A program made the position numbers and the translations under genes. A DNA stretch of 53,886 nucleotides from the NCBI GenBank assembly GCA_944388495.1, contig CALXIZ010000013.1, positions 1 to 53,886 of the forward strand, read 5' to 3'. The stretch comes from an uncultured Clostridia bacterium (GTDB lineage Bacteria > Bacillota > Clostridia > Peptostreptococcales > Anaerovoracaceae). A model generated the notes under the pieces. It was not told where the DNA came from and made no database searches. It saw only the letters and a program-made list of their open reading frames with translations. This document shows, piece after piece, positions 350 to 8,215 of this stretch. Numbering within the stretch: the first letter of the stretch is position 1; the number at the start of each line of letters is the position of its first letter.

Positions 350-1138
350 CTACAGATAACCGACAGCCGTCTTTACCCTGCGGCCGTCCGGCGCCGTGGT
401 CTCCGCCACGCCGGTACGGATGCCGTAGATCTCGTCCATCAGACTGCAGGTAAGGATTTCATTCGTGGGACCCGTCATATAATCGCGGCCGTTCTTTATC
501 ACAGTCACCTTCGACGCCACCGAAAAGGCGTGATCCGGGTCGTGCGTCGTCATGATGACGCCTCTGCCCGTCTCCGCCAGCTGTCTTACTCTCCTCAGCA
601 CCCGGATGCGGTTGCCGAAATCGAGATTCGACGTCGGCTCGTCCATGATCAGATAATCCGATTCCTGTGCGATGGCTCTGGCGATCAGAACCAGCTGACG
701 CTCGCCGCCGCTGATCTCGGTATAGGGCTCGTCCTTCAGATGATCGATGCCCATGAGAGCAAGAGCCCGCTCCGCCGCCTCCAGATCGCCTGCGGAAGGC
801 GCGGCGAACATCTGCATGTGAGCCGTCCTGCCCATCACCGCCACCTGCATGACGGTGAACGGAAAAGGAGGCGTATGAGACTGGGGAACGTATCCGATTT
901 TCCTCGCCCGTTCCCGGATCGACATATCGGAAAGATCCTTTCCGTCTGCCTTTACCGATCCGCCCAGCAGAGGGATTCCTCCCAGAACCGACCGGAAGAG
1001 CGTCGTTTTCCCGATGCCGTTGGATCCGAGGATGCACATGATCTCACCCCGGTCGACGGAAAGAGAGATTCCCTCTATGACTGTTTTCGTCTTTTTTCCC
1101 CGTCTGTATCCGCAGACGGCATTCTTTATCTCCAGCAT
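350..1138 (-). CDS. ABC transporter ATP-binding protein, iron/heme/cobalamin (FecE/BtuD-like) class
   Basis: A 262-residue cytoplasmic ATPase that powers the adjacent FecCD-type permease. Visible motifs in order are: Walker A GSNGIGKT (about 38-45), Q-loop VPQS (about 84-87), signature SGGER (143-147), Walker B YLIMDEP (162-168) with D-loop SNLD, and the switch histidine in TTHDPDH. Length and motif spacing fit the FecE/FhuC/BtuD family. It is the fourth gene of the minus-strand cluster, 71 nt after the binding-protein gene. The substrate cannot be read from the ATPase; siderophore-iron, heme or a corrinoid are the family options. Confidence 0.93.
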   Translation of the reverse strand: MLEIKNAVCGYRRGKKTKTVIEGISLSVDRGEIMCILGSNGIGKTTLFRSVLGGIPLLGGSVKADGKDLSDMSIRERARKIGYVPQSHTPPFPFTVMQVAVMGRTAHMQMFAAPSAGDLEAAERALALMGIDHLKDEPYTEISGGERQLVLIARAIAQESDYLIMDEPTSNLDFGNRIRVLRRVRQLAETGRGVIMTTHDPDHAFSVASKVTVIKNGRDYMTGPTNEILTCSLMDEIYGIRTGVAETTAPDGRRVKTAVGYL

Positions 1139-1209: not shown

Positions 1210-2715
1210 TTACGAAGGATCCTCTCTCGCCAGAATCTGACGGGCTTCCTCCCTCGTCAGACCGTATCCGTAAAATTCACTGTAAAATTCCATGACTTCC
1301 TGTTCCATATCCAGGTCCGCAAATTCGTCCGGATGGATCGTCTTCGCCATATACATGACCAGCAGGATTTTCTGCAGGCCCATATCCCAGTAAAAGACGC
1401 CGCTCGGCGTCAGATAGAGCTGATCATTCTTTACGGCGCTGATCGCCGCGTATTTTTCATCGCCGGCTGTAGTTTCCCTGATCTCCTCCGCCGTATCGCG
1501 GTCGTTCATGCTGCCGTGATCGATGAAGATATAGTCCGGATTCCAGGCCGCCAGCTGTTCAAAATTGATCTGTGTGTGATTTCCCGCTTCCAGATCCGCG
1601 GTGACGGAACGTCCGCCCGCCGCTTCGATCACTTCGCACAGATCGGAATATTTTCCGTAAGTCGTCAGAATATCGATACCGGCATAATATACCGCAGGTC
1701 TTTCCGATTCCGGTATCTGTGAAGTGATGTCGGTGACCGTTTTCATCTTCTCATCGAAATAGTCCGCATAAGCCTGCGCCCGTTCCTCTGCCCCGCCGCC
1801 GACCGCTTCGGCATAGACGGCGAGCTGCTCCTTCACATCGTCCAGAGACCGTGAAGTCACGCCCCAGACCGCCGGAATATTCAGAGCCTCCAGCTTTTTC
1901 AGCTCGTTCGGCCGGTTGAATGTCAGAGCCAGGTCCGGATCATATTTCTTTAATTCCTCCGTGCTGACGGAACTGTGTACGTTTTTCAGATATGGCAGCT
2001 CCGTAATCCCGGAAAAAATTTTCTGCGCCCACGGAAAATTTTCAAACTGAACGTCGGCGCATACCGAGATGCGGTCCTCCGCTCCCAGAACGACGAGCGC
2101 CTCATAGGCGGGACCGTAAATCGCCGCGATACTCTGCGGTTCATCCGCAAAGACTTCCATTTCTGATCCGTCGATATTGGTGACCGTCTTCATCTCCCGG
2201 CTTCCTGCCGCTCCGTAGGAAGAATCGTTTTCCGCGCTTTCCTGATCGCCGGAAACCGCCATCGTTCCCGCCGCATGGAATTCTCCCGTCAGCGTAAGAC
2301 CGGCCGGCGCGGAAAGCTCCGGTTCCTCCGTCACGCTGCCCGCCGTTTTTTCCTGAAGGACGAGCTTCGTTCCCGAGCTTTCCGTCACCTCCCAGATATC
2401 GTCAGCCCTTTCCACGGCTTCCGCCATGGAAGCTATCGTATTATCTGCATCTGTTCCCACATAGATACTGACCGGCTGATCCGGACAGTCTCCGCAGGGA
2501 TTTGACGCCTGATCTCTGTATACATTCATGTCCATACCGGCGAACGTGATGACGCCGCTCTCCTGCGCAGCGCCCTGTGCCGTAATCGTATAGATCGCTT
2601 TTTCATTCTTTTCCTGGCCGCAGGAACACGCCAGCAGCAGAGCGCAGATCAGCACTGCCGCCGCAGTCAGCGCGTGCATCCGGCGCCCGCGGTATCTCTT
2701 CCCGTCAAAACTCAT
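1210..2715 (-). CDS. ABC transporter substrate-binding lipoprotein with extra N-terminal module
   Basis: A 501-residue lipoprotein: basic start, hydrophobic segment and lipobox LLAC with Cys30 as lipidation site. Residues about 173-490 resemble the FecB/BtuF-type binding fold (DEPQSIAAIYGPAYEALVVL near the start of the fold, then ELKKYDPDLALTF, then WNPDYIFIDHG). Family members are usually near 300-350 residues; the excess is a region at about 31-172 with a PCGDCP motif (about 72-77). It also carries a segment at about 88-125 that resembles the C-terminal part of the lipoprotein encoded at 3772-4665. The ATG overlaps the permease stop (ATGA), implying translational coupling. The ligand is unknown; the CxxC suggests redox or metal/heme contact, which is inference. 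Confidence 0.88.
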   Translation of the reverse strand: MSFDGKRYRGRRMHALTAAAVLICALLLACSCGQEKNEKAIYTITAQGAAQESGVITFAGMDMNVYRDQASNPCGDCPDQPVSIYVGTDADNTIASMAEAVERADDIWEVTESSGTKLVLQEKTAGSVTEEPELSAPAGLTLTGEFHAAGTMAVSGDQESAENDSSYGAAGSREMKTVTNIDGSEMEVFADEPQSIAAIYGPAYEALVVLGAEDRISVCADVQFENFPWAQKIFSGITELPYLKNVHSSVSTEELKKYDPDLALTFNRPNELKKLEALNIPAVWGVTSRSLDDVKEQLAVYAEAVGGGAEERAQAYADYFDEKMKTVTDITSQIPESERPAVYYAGIDILTTYGKYSDLCEVIEAAGGRSVTADLEAGNHTQINFEQLAAWNPDYIFIDHGSMNDRDTAEEIRETTAGDEKYAAISAVKNDQLYLTPSGVFYWDMGLQKILLVMYMAKTIHPDEFADLDMEQEVMEFYSEFYGYGLTREEARQILAREDPS

Positions 2716-3767
2716 AAAAAACTCTTCTTTCCTTTAAACATCAGATACAGGAAAAACGGCGCTCCGATAATAGCCGTCAGCACGCCCAGCGGGATCTCCT
2801 GCGCGAACAGGCATCTCGCCAGATCGTCCACCGCCAGCAGAAACAGTCCGCCTATGAGCACCGAGCAGGGCAGCATTTTCGAGTAATCCGGCCCAGCAAT
2901 CATTCTCGCGATGTGCGGAACGATCAGTCCCACCCAGCCGATCATGCCTCCCACCGCCACGGCGGAAGAAGACATCAGCGTCGGGCACAGGATGATGATT
3001 CCGCGCATTTTTTTCGTGTCCAGCCCCAGCGACGAGGATTCCTCATCGTCGAGAGACAGCACATTCAGCCGCCACCTCAGAAGCATCAGCGGAATCATTC
3101 CCGCCGCGAAAGGGACGAGCATGATGAAAATATCGCTCTTCGTCACATACGTCAGGCCTCCCATCAGCCAGAAGGTGATCGTCGGCAGTGTATCGTACGG
3201 GTCGCCTACAAATTTTACGATAGAAATGAAAGCGGAAAACAGCGCCGCGATGACCATGCCTGTCAGCACCAGCGTCAGCGTCGCTCCGCCCGACTGAGCC
3301 GTCAGAGCCGAGCTGATAAAGTAAGCGGCCGCCACGGCCACCAGGCCGAAGCAGAACGCAGATATCTGAATGACAAGGGCGTTTCCTTCCAGAAGAATCG
3401 CCAGCGCCGCGCCGAAGCTCGCTCCCGTAGCCGCTCCGAGAATATCGGGCGAAACCATGGGATTGCGGAAAATTCCCTGGTAAGCTGCGCCGGCCGCGGC
3501 AAGAGCCGCTCCGATGAGAACCGCCGCCGCTATGCGCGCCAGCCTCGATTCGAAGAGAACGAGAGCCGCCGCTTCCGTCTCCTCGCTGTCATACGGTCCT
3601 CCGAAATCTGTGATAATGTCCAGCAGCGTCGGCAGGGTGATGGAATATCTTCCGACCATGACTGATATCACCGCTGCCGCGGCGAGAAGAAGCAGCAGCA
3701 CAGAAGTGACTGCCGGCATTCTGTTCTTTTCCGGTCTTTTCATCATTCTCTTCCGGCTCTCTTCCAT
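2712..3767 (-). CDS. FecCD-family ABC permease
   Basis: An integral membrane permease of the iron-siderophore/heme/cobalamin importer family. After a short basic start there are about nine to ten hydrophobic segments. Family landmarks visible are GAALAAAGAAYQGIFRNPMVSPDILGAATGAS cut into its typical pieces (GAAYQGIFRNP, LGAATGASFG) and the C-terminal GWVGLIVPHIARMIAG, the contact region for the ATPase. I chose the ATG at 3767 (MEESRKRMM), 4 nt after the upstream stop, because the frame further upstream lies inside the lipoprotein gene. A second ATG pair at about 3743-3746 is possible. About 351 residues, normal for the family. It is translationally coupled to the binding-protein gene. Confidence 0.92.
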   Translation of the reverse strand: MEESRKRMMKRPEKNRMPAVTSVLLLLLAAAAVISVMVGRYSITLPTLLDIITDFGGPYDSEETEAAALVLFESRLARIAAAVLIGAALAAAGAAYQGIFRNPMVSPDILGAATGASFGAALAILLEGNALVIQISAFCFGLVAVAAAYFISSALTAQSGGATLTLVLTGMVIAALFSAFISIVKFVGDPYDTLPTITFWLMGGLTYVTKSDIFIMLVPFAAGMIPLMLLRWRLNVLSLDDEESSSLGLDTKKMRGIIILCPTLMSSSAVAVGGMIGWVGLIVPHIARMIAGPDYSKMLPCSVLIGGLFLLAVDDLARCLFAQEIPLGVLTAIIGAPFFLYLMFKGKKSFL

Positions 3768-3771
3768 ACAA

Positions 3772-4665
3772 TCATTCCGCCTCCTCCGCGTCTCTGTCCG
3801 TATCAGCCTTCTCTGCAGCCTGTCCGCCTTCCGCGCCGGCTGCCGCACTGCCGCCCGCCATGTCGTCTCCCGTATAAATTTCCAGCTTCAGCTGACTCTG
3901 TTTTCCCGTCTTCTCACGGATCGTCAGCCTGTTTCCGTCGGCAGACGCCTCCAGGTCAGAGGAATAGTAACGGTTGATCGTCTCCGCCATATCCGCAGCC
4001 GTCGATTCCGGCGTCGCCCACAGGAATTCGTGCTCGTGAACGGCGGCCGCATCGTCCATCACATCCGTCGTATCCGTCTCATCTGGTATTACGACCTGAC
4101 CGTCGCGCAGAATCCGCAGCCAGATGATACTGCGGTGCGTCACGACACTGTCCACCTGACAGACGGTACTTCCCGCGCCTTCCTCTATCGTACTTACAGA
4201 AGCTCCGCTCGGAATGAGCTGCTTTATTTCAAGCTTCTCCACACAGTTTTTTCCCTCTTTATCCGTGAGTCCTGACAGCATTTCGCTGTCAGGAGCATTG
4301 GTGATTTCCATCATCCCGTCGTTTACCTGCACCACGGGAACGCTGATCTCGACAGTGTCGTCCCCGCTCTGCGAGACCGTCACATCCTCCGGGTCAATCC
4401 GCTGACCGCCGATGACGATGCGCAGCTGTTCCGCCAGATTTTCATCGAAGGCGACAGCTCTGTCAAATGTGAGATCCGCTATGATTCTCTGATCCTGTAT
4501 GCCTCCGCTGCACTCTCCTCTCATCTCACACCCCGTAAGAACAGGAGAGTCCGCTCCCGGCTCCGCCCCGCCGCCTGCGCCGCATCCGGCACACAGCAAA
4601 GCGATGATACAGATAAATACGATATTTAATATCCGTCTTTGTTTTCTTTTTTTCAGCTTATGCAT
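3772..4665 (-). CDS. Lipoprotein of the ABC uptake cluster, unknown function
   Basis: A 297-residue predicted lipoprotein, first gene of the minus-strand cluster. The N-terminus is very basic (MHKLKKRKQRRIL), followed by a hydrophobic stretch and lipobox LCAGC. The middle (about 50-150) looks beta-rich, with an Ig-like rhythm (ADLTFDRAVAF, RIVIGGQRIDPEDVTV, VEISVPVVQV). Residues about 217-253 (STAADMAETIN then GNRLTIREKTG) resemble a segment of the neighbouring binding protein and the pattern of flagellin hook IN-type motifs. The last 40 residues are Ala/Glu/Gly-rich. I do not recognise the family. Its position between a regulated promoter and the permease suggests a surface capture or docking role, which is inference. 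Confidence 0.75.
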   Translation of the reverse strand: MHKLKKRKQRRILNIVFICIIALLCAGCGAGGGAEPGADSPVLTGCEMRGECSGGIQDQRIIADLTFDRAVAFDENLAEQLRIVIGGQRIDPEDVTVSQSGDDTVEISVPVVQVNDGMMEITNAPDSEMLSGLTDKEGKNCVEKLEIKQLIPSGASVSTIEEGAGSTVCQVDSVVTHRSIIWLRILRDGQVVIPDETDTTDVMDDAAAVHEHEFLWATPESTAADMAETINRYYSSDLEASADGNRLTIREKTGKQSQLKLEIYTGDDMAGGSAAAGAEGGQAAEKADTDRDAEEAE

Positions 4666-4766: not shown

Positions 4767-4797
4767 AGTATAAACTTATAAGTAACTACCAAGTCAA
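4767..4797 (-). promoter_or_regulatory. MerR-type promoter and operator of the uptake cluster
   Basis: On the minus strand a TTGACT -35 box (4797-4792) and a TATACT -10 box (4772-4767) are separated by 19 bp, the overlong spacer typical of MerR-activated promoters. The spacer holds a dyad centred between 4778 and 4779: GTA-n3-ACTTATAAGT-n3-TAC at 4768-4789. A MerR-family gene starts 18 nt away on the other strand, so autoregulation from the same operator is likely. A weaker plus-strand -35 candidate (TTGACG, 4756-4761) could serve the regulator. The predicted start near 4760 leaves a leader of about 95 nt. Confidence 0.75.
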
Positions 4798-4814: not shown

Positions 4815-5765
4815 ATGACAGAAAATTACGAAAATAAAAAAAATAAATATATTACACTGGGAAATCTGGCAAAACTGGCCAATATCGGACGTGATACTCT
4901 GTCTTTTTACAGTCGTAAGGGATTAATACGTCCGGTGTACGTCGGAGATAACGGCTATAAATACTTTCTGCCGGAACAGGTGCAGACGATTCATTTCATA
5001 CGCTTTTACCGCAGACTCGATTTTCCGCTGGAGACGATTCAGAATATGCTCGACAGCTCCGAAAAGGAGGAACATACCGATCAGGATCAGACAGCAGCCT
5101 TCGAAAGACAGCTGGCATACCTGCAGCGAAAGATCGAAGATTTCCGTACGGCGGCGGCCTTTCTGGAAACGGAAAAAAATTTTCACCTTTATATCAGCAG
5201 TCACAGAAACGACAGTGTCTTTTTTTCACAGCTGGAGGAAAAAAATTTTTATCAGACGCCGATCCGTTTCTGCCATTCGCTGAATCAGGCGGAAAACGCA
5301 CAGAAAATCTCGGACTTTTTCTGCAGAGGCGGCAGCTTTCAGATCCCGGAATATCCGATCTGCTGCGTCATTCCCCGGCAGGCTCTTCTCGAGGGACATT
5401 TCTGCGCCTACGTCCGTCAGGAAAACATGGCGGAAATCTCCGGCTGCGGGAAAATGCCTGCGGACGAAGCATCTCAGACAGACGGACAGAATGATGACGC
5501 GTACCGGCACACCACTTCTTCTTATAGCTGCGAAAACGGTATCGTCACACGCAGCGCGGGAACATATGCCTGTTTTATCCATACCGGCGGTACGGGAAGT
5601 ATCTTCCCTTCCATCCGCAGGATTCTCGACGAGCTCGGGCAGAGCGGTATAAAGATCACAGGCGACGCTTACGTCATCAACTCTTACCATTTTCTGAATG
5701 TCACGGAATTTCAGCACTCCGACTATATCATTCAGATCCGGGTCGAAGACCTGCCGCAGGAATAG
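4815..5765 (+). CDS. MerR-family transcriptional regulator with GyrI-like effector domain
   Basis: A 316-residue regulator. The N-terminal winged helix (about 13-80) shows the MerR pattern: YITLGNLAKLANIGRDTLSFYSRKGLI, then the wing NGYKYF, then FIRFYRRLDFPLETIQNML. A dimerisation helix follows (about 85-125). The C-terminal half (about 150-316) has the look of a GyrI/BmrR-type ligand pocket, ending in EDLPQE. Such proteins twist a 19-bp-spacer promoter into an active form on ligand binding. The divergent ABC cluster has exactly such a promoter, making it the probable target. The ligand is unknown. The coding sequence is preceded by GAGTAGGTAAG rather than a strong GGAGG. Confidence 0.88.
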   Translation: MTENYENKKNKYITLGNLAKLANIGRDTLSFYSRKGLIRPVYVGDNGYKYFLPEQVQTIHFIRFYRRLDFPLETIQNMLDSSEKEEHTDQDQTAAFERQLAYLQRKIEDFRTAAAFLETEKNFHLYISSHRNDSVFFSQLEEKNFYQTPIRFCHSLNQAENAQKISDFFCRGGSFQIPEYPICCVIPRQALLEGHFCAYVRQENMAEISGCGKMPADEASQTDGQNDDAYRHTTSSYSCENGIVTRSAGTYACFIHTGGTGSIFPSIRRILDELGQSGIKITGDAYVINSYHFLNVTEFQHSDYIIQIRVEDLPQE

Positions 5766-5963: not shown

Positions 5964-7127
5964 TTATCCGTTTCGCTTCACACGGCCGGCGCGCAGATCC
6001 TCCACGGCTTCCGTCACGCCCTTTACAATCCGTTCCGCTTCTTCCTCCGTATTATAGCGTCCCAGAGAGATGCGCAGCGAACCGTGCGCCAGCTGATACG
6101 GCACGCCGGCTGCCAGCAGCACGTGGCTCGGATCCACCGAACCGGAAGTGCAGGCGGAACCGGAAGAAGCCGCGATGCCTTTCAGATCCAGCTCAAACAG
6201 CAGCGCCTCTCCGTCGATCTTCTCAAAGGACACATTCAGAATGCCCGGAAGGCGGTCTGCTCCGCCGCCGTTGAGATAAGCTCCCGGGATTCTGAGAATT
6301 CTGGCCTGTATTTCATCCCGCATGGCAGCCATGCGCTCCGCTTTTTCCTTCATCATTCCGCAGGATTCTTCCAGAGCCGCAGCCATGCCGGCGATACAGG
6401 CCACATTTTCCGTTCCGGACCTGTGTCCTCTCTCCTGCGCGCCGCCGTCCAGAAGATTATCCGGACAGGCGCCCTTACGGCAGTACAGCACGCCGGTTCC
6501 CTTCGGACCGTTAAACTTGTGAGCCGATATCGACAGCATATCGATGTTCTGTTCTTTTACATCGATCGGAAGAATGCCCGCCGCCTGTACGGCATCCGTA
6601 TGAAAGAGCACGCCCGCTTCGCGGCAGACCGCTCCGATCTCCGCTATCGGCTGTATCGTGCCGATTTCGTTGTTGGCATACATCACAGAGACGAGCGCGG
6701 TATCCGGCCGGATGGCATCTCTGACCGCCTCCGCAGAAATCCGTCCGCCGGCGCCGACCGGAAGAAGGGTCACTTCAAAGCCGTCCTCCCGCAGCGATTC
6801 CGCCGCATGAAGAATCGCATGATGCTCGATTGCAGTGGTGACGATATGTTTCTTTCCTTCCTTCGCAAGCCTGCGCGCCGTTCCCTTCAGCGCCCAGTTA
6901 TCCGACTCCGTCCCGCAGGAGGTAAAATACACATCTCCCGCAGGCGCATGAAGCGCGGACGCTATTTTTTTCCGCGCATCCTCTATAGCTCTGTGTGCTT
7001 CTCTTCCGATGGCATAGAGGGAAGACGGATTTCCGTAATGCTCTTTCAGATACGGCGTCATCGCCTCCAGCGCATATTCCGACAATCTCGTCGTCGCCGC
7101 ATTATCCGCATAAATAAATTCTTTCAT
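5964..7127 (-). CDS. nifS: Cysteine desulfurase, NifS/IscS family
   Basis: A 387-residue PLP enzyme that converts cysteine to alanine and hands persulfide sulfur to acceptors. Motifs: N-terminal YADNAATT, TSCGTESDNWAL, PLP lysine in SAHKFNGPKG (Lys about 204), catalytic cysteine in SSGSACTSGS (Cys about 326), and the closing HGSLRISLGRYNTEEE. The loop after the cysteine is IscS/NifS-like (class I). No iscU/nifU scaffold or thiI-like gene is adjacent. Instead the gene follows an XdhC-like gene by 47 nt, presumably in one transcript. That pairing points to sulfuration of the molybdenum cofactor of xanthine dehydrogenase-type enzymes, by analogy with XdhC-NifS4, although a general Fe-S role cannot be excluded. 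Confidence 0.93.
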   Translation of the reverse strand: MKEFIYADNAATTRLSEYALEAMTPYLKEHYGNPSSLYAIGREAHRAIEDARKKIASALHAPAGDVYFTSCGTESDNWALKGTARRLAKEGKKHIVTTAIEHHAILHAAESLREDGFEVTLLPVGAGGRISAEAVRDAIRPDTALVSVMYANNEIGTIQPIAEIGAVCREAGVLFHTDAVQAAGILPIDVKEQNIDMLSISAHKFNGPKGTGVLYCRKGACPDNLLDGGAQERGHRSGTENVACIAGMAAALEESCGMMKEKAERMAAMRDEIQARILRIPGAYLNGGGADRLPGILNVSFEKIDGEALLFELDLKGIAASSGSACTSGSVDPSHVLLAAGVPYQLAHGSLRISLGRYNTEEEAERIVKGVTEAVEDLRAGRVKRNG

Positions 7128-7174
7128 TATATATACCTTTTCCGCAGATACAGATTCATGATCTTTCCGTTATC

Positions 7175-8215
7175 TCAGGCTTCCGTCCCGTCCTCGATCA
7201 GCGCATACATGACGCCGCCGCATACCATTCCGTCGGATTCCGCCACTTCACCCGTCATATCGATAAACACTGTCTTGTATTCTCCCGTACCGATGATATC
7301 GACCGCATCGCGGATCACCGCTCCTTCACTGCAGCCGCCGCCGATACTGCCGGTAACGCTTCCTCTTCTGTCCACCGCCATCTTGGCGCCGGCGCCGCGC
7401 GGCGTGGATCCCTTCGTCTGAATGACGGTCACGACAGCCTTCGGCTCGTGATTTTCCGCCAGGTACTCGATCATGTCCAGATCCAGATCAGATCCGTTCA
7501 CATACCGCGTATGTCCCGTGTTCTTTTCCGGCAGGCGCTTGTACGCGATAACCTCGGAGAGAATAGATACCGCGATTTCCTCCGGTGTCACAGCGCCGAT
7601 CTTCAGGCCGATCGGCGTCGCGATTCTCTCGATCTTATCCTTGTCAAAGCCTTCTTCCACGAGCATGTCCAGAAGGCCGCGCACTCTTCTTCTCGATCCG
7701 ATCATGCCCAGATAAGCCGGCTGTGCGCCCGGCAGAATCGCCCGCAGGCAGTCGGCATCGTGGCGGTGTCCTCTGGTGATGATGACGACAAAATCGTACG
7801 GCGTGATCTTCAGATCCGCGATGGCATTTTCAAAGGAATCGCAGATAACGCCTGCCGCCCACGGAAAACGTTCTTCATTGGCAAAGGCCGGTCTGTCGTC
7901 GACTACATAGACCTCAAATCCGCATTTTGCGGAAAATTCGCAGACGGGAAGCGCAATATGACCGCCTCCGAGCACGATCAGTCGTTCCTTTGGAAGGATC
8001 GGCTCGCTGATACGAAAATCATCACCTGTCTTTTCCGCTGTCGGGCTGATGACAGACAGCCCTTCATCCGACTGTTCTGCCGGCATGATCTTCAGCGAAC
8101 GCTTCAGGCCGTCTTCCATCCGTCCGCTTTCCCCGCAGATCTGTGTCTCGATGGATACACTCTCTCCCTCTTCAATCGCGTCGAGTATCTGAGCGTAAAT
8201 ATTTTTTTCTTCCAT
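7175..8215 (-). CDS. XdhC/CoxI-family protein, reordered domains
   Basis: A 346-residue protein of the XdhC/CoxI family, which binds molybdenum cofactor and assists its sulfuration and insertion into xanthine dehydrogenase-like hydroxylases. A Rossmann-like module comes first (LIVLGGGHIALPVCEF at about 80-95, then VVIITRGHRHDADCL and GMIGSRRR). The CoxI module follows at the C-terminal end (VVTVIQTKGSTPRGAGAKM, then GSIGGGCSEGAVI). In the usual XdhC layout the CoxI module is N-terminal. The first 50 residues look like a decayed copy of the CoxI start. A clear GGAGG lies 9 nt before the ATG and an extended -10 promoter about 55 nt upstream. No molybdoenzyme gene is in the window. Confidence 0.87.
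   Translation of the reverse strand: MEEKNIYAQILDAIEEGESVSIETQICGESGRMEDGLKRSLKIMPAEQSDEGLSVISPTAEKTGDDFRISEPILPKERLIVLGGGHIALPVCEFSAKCGFEVYVVDDRPAFANEERFPWAAGVICDSFENAIADLKITPYDFVVIITRGHRHDADCLRAILPGAQPAYLGMIGSRRRVRGLLDMLVEEGFDKDKIERIATPIGLKIGAVTPEEIAVSILSEVIAYKRLPEKNTGHTRYVNGSDLDLDMIEYLAENHEPKAVVTVIQTKGSTPRGAGAKMAVDRRGSVTGSIGGGCSEGAVIRDAVDIIGTGEYKTVFIDMTGEVAESDGMVCGGVMYALIEDGTEA

Follow-up and report, generated by a model that had tools for sequence, protein, structure and literature searches.

A putative MerR-type switch upstream of a FecCD-class importer operon in uncultured gut Clostridia

Results

Genes at the locus

We analyzed a stretch of 53,886 nucleotides (the window) from an uncultured Clostridia bacterium (contig CALXIZ010000013.1 of assembly GCA_944388495.1). 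Near its start, minus-strand genes encode a lipoprotein, a FecCD permease, a substrate-binding lipoprotein, and an ABC ATPase (Table 1). A MerR-family regulator is encoded divergently, and a putative promoter lies between the regulator and the lipoprotein. The contig ends within a gene for a surface protein, which is probably the next gene of the operon. (Over 46 amino acids, it shares 33% identity with the SLH surface protein that occupies the corresponding position in locus L044, which is described below.) Beyond the regulator and convergent with it are genes for a cysteine desulfurase (NifS-like) and a maturation factor for aldehyde oxidoreductase (XdhC family), at 5964-8215. This arrangement is repeated in the sister species.

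The first lipoprotein of the operon has no Pfam family. Its AlphaFold model has a mean pLDDT of 81, and a fold search returned generic Ig-like matches only, with no clue to the substrate. The ATPase matches NCBIfam models for corrinoid, F420-0, and heme ATPases, none of them over the cut-off. By eye, the N-terminal domain of the binding protein (NPCGDCPDQPVSIYVG; gene at 1210-2715), the second domain of the lipoprotein (VHEHEFLWAT; gene at 3772-4665), and a stretch of the surface protein from L044 (VHTHMYLTG; L044 1877-4918) look like versions of one domain. A second, conserved module adjoins the importer (L045 11722-15929, L090 3986-10343, L046 1295-5735, and L049 8290-12261). It comprises an Ig-like surface protein, an ATPase, and a large permease of about 740-760 amino acids, the latter two of ABC type.

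Table 1. Features of the locus and of related loci. Positions are those of the window unless another locus is given.
Feature	Position	Strand	Evidence or remarks
Start of secreted surface protein, truncated where the contig stops	1-162	-	Signal-peptide-like N-terminus
ABC ATPase of the importer	350-1138	-	Pfam ABC_tran, 4.7e-29
Substrate-binding lipoprotein, Peripla_BP_2 with an additional N-terminal domain	1210-2715	-	Pfam Peripla_BP_2, 7.2e-21
FecCD permease	2712-3848	-	Pfam FecCD, 3.7e-83; likely ATG at 3767
Lipoprotein, operon gene 1, two Ig-like domains	3772-4665	-	Family alignment; HEHEFLWAT motif conserved
Putative MerR-type promoter	4767-4797	-	-35 TTGACT at 4797-4792, 19-bp spacer, -10 TATACT at 4772-4767
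Candidate operator dyad ACTTGGTAGTTACTTATAAGT (minus-strand reading), 21 bp	4774-4794		Centre 4784; conserved in four loci
MerR-family regulator, 316 aa	4815-5765	+	HTH 14-81, dimerisation helix about 89-121, C-terminal domain
modD beside the importer in MerR-less relatives	L046 437-1270; L048 3691-4566; L049 12271-13101; L050 3764-4609

The promoter as seen in the window

A sequence-only reading of this DNA had placed a TTGACT and a TATACT box 19 bp apart on the minus strand and a regulator gene 18 nt away. Both statements are exact, in bases and in coordinates. From 4797 to 4767 the minus strand reads TTGACT-TGGTAGTTACTTATAAGTT-TATACT, with a 19-bp spacer, and the divergent MerR gene has its ATG at 4815, 18 nt from the promoter edge at 4797. 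Between the promoter and the lipoprotein gene (4665-3772) is an AT-rich leader of about 95 nt. The pattern TTGACT-N18-20-TATACT occurs just once in the 2.06-Mb genome, at this site. Our scan with 16-18-bp spacers, which excludes the 19-bp site by design, gave chance-level sites only, and an Rfam search of the whole window found no riboswitch or other match.

Taken alone, the window's promoter exceeds chance by a moderate margin only. (In dinucleotide shuffles of the 149-bp region, 8% had a 10/12 promoter with a spacer of 19/20 bp on the same strand.) The 22-bp dyad that had been reported in the spacer does exist, at 4768-4789, with 8 of 11 pairs and its centre at 4778.5, and it is built on the 10-bp ACTTATAAGT. 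Dyads of 22 bp and equal quality are present elsewhere in the AT-rich region, and nothing in the window alone sets this dyad apart from what AT-rich sequence yields by chance. We rejected ACTTATAAGT, the obvious palindrome, as the operator core: it is absent from L044 and L045. From the window alone, the promoter and the palindrome could be put down to chance in intergenic DNA that is AT-rich, but the site is conserved in three other genomes, in the same place and orientation, which makes coincidence very improbable.

Conservation of the promoter and the operator

Four genomes from three genera have the divergent MerR/lipoprotein pair: the window's genome, its sister species Candidatus Alangreenwoodia gallinarii (L043), a member of another genus (L044), and a member of a third genus (L045). 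(Scanning genome contigs for the lipoprotein gave two loci only, both among those already recovered.) The pattern TTGAC-19 bp-TAnAnT is kept in all four loci, in the same place and orientation. In L043, L044, and L045, the promoter scores 11/12 with a 19-bp spacer, a result matched by 0.6-0.9% of shuffles in each case, and no promoter of equal score with a 16-18-bp spacer was found in these three intergenic regions. The best match to the window's 31-mer is 30/31 in L043, 24/31 in L044, and 23/31 in L045; shuffles reached these values in 0/2000, 0/2000, and 1/2000 cases, respectively. The letters that are invariant across the four loci are TTGAC.T..TAG..ACT...AAGTTTA.A.T, of which AC.T..TAG..ACT...AAGT is the dyad part.

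A caveat is that the L043 intergenic region resembles the window's along its entire length, so the evidence for a footprint comes from L044 and L045, whose intergenic regions have diverged outside the promoter site. When we searched all four whole genomes for the motif, allowing up to 3 mismatches, we found one site per genome and none besides. The regulator therefore looks dedicated and local.

Comparing the dyad across orthologous loci was a check that the sequence-only reading had itself proposed, and it showed that a palindrome is conserved in four of four loci along with the 19-bp spacer. What is conserved, however, is the 21-bp dyad at 4774-4794 with its centre at 4784, rather than the 22-bp dyad of the sequence-only reading. 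The symmetry of the 21-bp dyad is incomplete: 7 of its 10 pairs match in the window, and fewer in L045. In every one of the four species, the same five pairs around promoter position 14 (4784 in the window) are complementary; this position is the register of the CueR, BmrR, and MerR sites. With the centre fixed at 4784, the symmetry has P = 0.007 if columns are shuffled and P = 0.0007 if only the dyad's own columns are shuffled, but with the centre left free, P = 0.13, which is not significant. Overall, the proposed MerR-type promoter architecture is supported: a 19-bp spacer, near-consensus hexamers, and an internal palindrome are found at four of four loci.

The regulator

The N-terminal winged helix-turn-helix domain of the regulator is plainly that of a MerR protein by its Pfam matches (MerR_1, 2.2e-11, and MerR-DNA-bind, 6.7e-11, both over the cut-off). 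Among the NCBIfam equivalogs for metal sensors (CueR, ZntR, and MerR), no cut-off was reached; the best was ZntR, with 57.5 bits vs. 143.

The GyrI-like part of the earlier description is harder to see. Pfam has no match to the C-terminal half of the window's regulator, and the L044 regulator (45% identical) has a sub-threshold match to GyrI-like (E = 0.2, 12.3 bits vs. a cut-off of 26). A profile of the C-terminal domain, built from the three full-length orthologs, matched proteins from 17 further genomes at E ≤ 1e-3. All five of the ORFs that we scanned from this search are MerR proteins with a Pfam GyrI-like domain, which is over the cut-off in four of them. Against the PDB, the top rows for the profile are BmrR (E = 0.07-0.18), and once intermediates are included in the alignment, BmrR is matched along its full length at 1.2e-36. 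These profiles suggest that the C-terminal domain is remotely GyrI/BmrR-like. An AlphaFold model of the regulator, built with three sequences, has a mean pLDDT of 47 and gives no usable fold for the C-terminal half.

In BmrR, Glu253 contacts cationic drugs. The corresponding residue in the window's regulator is Val287, which is invariant in the three full-length orthologs. Because Glu253 is replaced, we predict that the regulator, though BmrR-like in plan, probably senses something other than cationic drugs. The description as a MerR/GyrI-like regulator stands for the DNA-binding domain and, by remote profile, for the ligand domain, but the key glutamate has been replaced, and from one ortholog the ligand domain is missing altogether. 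That ortholog, from L045 (6860-7306), has just 148 amino acids. By eye, it has a cysteine near the place of the metal-binding cysteine of ZntR and MerR. Its ribosome-binding site (AGGAG) falls within the conserved operator. Because the ligand domain is lost and the ribosome-binding site lies inside the operator, control of the L045 operon may be different, and what L045 senses would have to differ as well.

A model for the switch

The targets of MerR proteins are marked by a 19-20-bp spacer and a palindrome, and the regulators act as dimers that bind the spacer and, with ligand, distort the DNA (PMC9909328, PMC1526738). Since the 19-bp spacer and near-consensus hexamers have persisted in four loci even though the L044 and L045 regions have otherwise diverged, we read 4767-4797 as a MerR switch. 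We consider it likely that a dedicated switch has its promoter and operator here, that it is activated by ligand through the adjacent regulator, and that it drives the importer operon. By analogy to the family's mechanism, from which ligand activation is inferred, the regulator most likely responds to a compound by switching on uptake. In the proposed mechanism, a dimer of the regulator would bind the 21-bp dyad within the 19-bp spacer. As long as no ligand is present, the bound regulator would keep the -35 box misaligned with the -10 box. The GyrI-like C-terminal domain would bind the ligand, which is probably the imported compound or its product. The ligand-bound regulator would then kink the DNA, presenting RNA polymerase with the equivalent of a promoter with a 17-bp spacer, and the lipoprotein, permease, binding protein, and ATPase (and the downstream surface protein) would be switched on.

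Several observations count against the switch. The dyad's symmetry is imperfect and loses significance when the centre is free, the regulator of L045 has no ligand domain, Val287 stands in place of Glu253, and most relatives of the importer within the family (L046-L050) have no MerR gene. In L046, L048, L049, and L050, we found no comparable MerR-like promoter ahead of the permease.

The regulator might instead be mainly a repressor or autoregulator, with the 19-bp spacer simply making a weak constitutive promoter. The L045 ortholog, with its missing ligand domain and its ribosome-binding site inside the operator, would fit simple repression or autoregulation. But a plain repressor needs neither the exact 19-bp spacing nor the strong hexamers that are found in all four loci, and which suit activation by distortion, so we view this alternative as unlikely.

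What does the importer carry?

The sequence-only reading had described an iron-family importer. The proteins are of the FecCD class, but FecCD and Peripla_BP_2 systems also carry B12, heme, and molybdate. The matches to these families are not specific for import of iron-siderophores or heme, because B12 and molybdate importers share both families. When we compared iron- or heme-specific models to the importer's proteins, all were far below the cut-off, including weak matches of the binding protein to IsdE, SstD, and FecB. The binding protein's best matches in the PDB are binding proteins without an assigned substrate. Its solved relatives include HI_1472 (MolA, E = 1.2e-11), nickel binders, and siderophore binders. 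MolA belongs to MolBC-A, a BtuCD-like (type II) molybdate importer (PMC4031551).

Relatives of the importer point away from iron. In four of the four intact relatives that lack MerR, the importer adjoins modD (NCBIfam TIGR01334, over the cut-off), and the clusters next to modD (permease, binding protein, ATPase, lipoprotein) are related to the window's. This linkage hints that the importer subfamily may carry molybdate or tungstate. If so, the switch would be the same, the cargo would be molybdate, tungstate, or a chelate of one of them, and the regulator would report molybdenum, tungsten, or the need for cofactor. Besides modD, the MolA match and the NifS and XdhC maturation genes that flank the regulator in the window and its sister species favor this idea. 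On the other hand, modD is absent from the window's genome and from a second genome (G022), and in a third (G177) it is unlinked; ModD's own role is uncertain; the binding protein's closest structures have no assigned substrate; and the surface protein of the L044 operon has a Shr-like domain, which is named for heme-protein binding. We regard a molybdate or tungstate cargo as quite plausible, but short of probable.

The Shr-like domain, the FecCD/Peripla_BP_2 classification, and the weak IsdE, SstD, and FecB matches would fit ligand-activated uptake of an iron-siderophore or heme instead. This is possible but doubtful, given the scores of the iron-specific models, the modD linkage in relatives, and the result for Fur: in the four intergenic regions, the best Fur boxes by a consensus test matched 11-12 of 19 positions, no better than shuffles. 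(The window's genome has one FUR-family gene, and a gene for an MntR/DtxR-like metalloregulator is on the same contig at 11461-11913, 7 kb from the promoter.) So the iron-family label holds for the protein class and not for the cargo. We infer that the substrate is a metal chelate or an oxyanion. Iron is no more likely than molybdate or tungstate, which we place slightly ahead, and we claim neither.

Discussion

Comparison to known systems

The closest parallels to the regulator are BmrR and Mta from B. subtilis, which share the MerR helix-turn-helix, the long dimer helix, a GyrI-like C-terminal domain (by profile), and a promoter with a 19-bp spacer and an internal dyad. In contrast to the window's importer, their target is a drug exporter, and the C-terminal domains match remotely in sequence and differ at Glu253 (Val287). 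MerR, CueR, and ZntR also have a 19/20-bp spacer with a palindrome, and the regulator is divergent in mer too (PMC1526738). These proteins control efflux or detoxification via metal sites made of cysteines, whereas the window's regulator is below the cut-offs for their equivalogs.

Two precedents bear on the expectation that such control of an importer would be unusual, as importers of this kind had been presumed to be normally under Fur or DtxR control. NimR from H. influenzae is a MerR-family protein that regulates a nickel importer, NikKLMQO (PMC9909328, PMC7055735). NimR binds Ni(II), while the system in the window has a FecCD-class importer and a GyrI-like sensor. The importer that NimR controls is ECF-type. 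In B. subtilis, the FecCD-class importer feuABC has a dedicated activator, Btr, which is AraC-type and senses ferri-bacillibactin. Because feuABC is repressed by Fur as well as activated by Btr, an activated importer can also be under repression. To our knowledge, no MerR gene is known for MolBC-A (HI1470-1472 in H. influenzae), whose BtuCD-like importer and Peripla_BP_2 binder resemble the window's and whose binder is related. MolBC-A is not known to have lipoprotein or surface partners. The regulator of the mol genes was not identified (PMC4031551).

Our search of the open-licence literature turned up no account of a MerR protein that controls a siderophore or FecCD importer, which is weak evidence. 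The expectation survives in part: no MerR/FecCD precedent came up in the papers searched, but MerR control of a metal importer and activation of a FecCD-class importer were both known already. The switch would be ordinary in mechanism, and its target somewhat unusual.

Implications

Tentatively, a previously undescribed MerR/GyrI-like activator may sense an imported metal chelate or oxyanion (possibly related to molybdenum or tungsten) and switch on a FecCD-class importer that has its own surface proteins, with one lineage having shed the ligand domain and kept the operator. The known mechanism of MerR proteins would be unchanged by this case. If the proposal is true, then distortion-type activation by MerR proteins, which is mostly known for efflux and stress, reaches a FecCD-class importer in uncultured gut Clostridia. 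The operator motif from four species would be a handle to screen for the ligand and hence for the importer's substrate.
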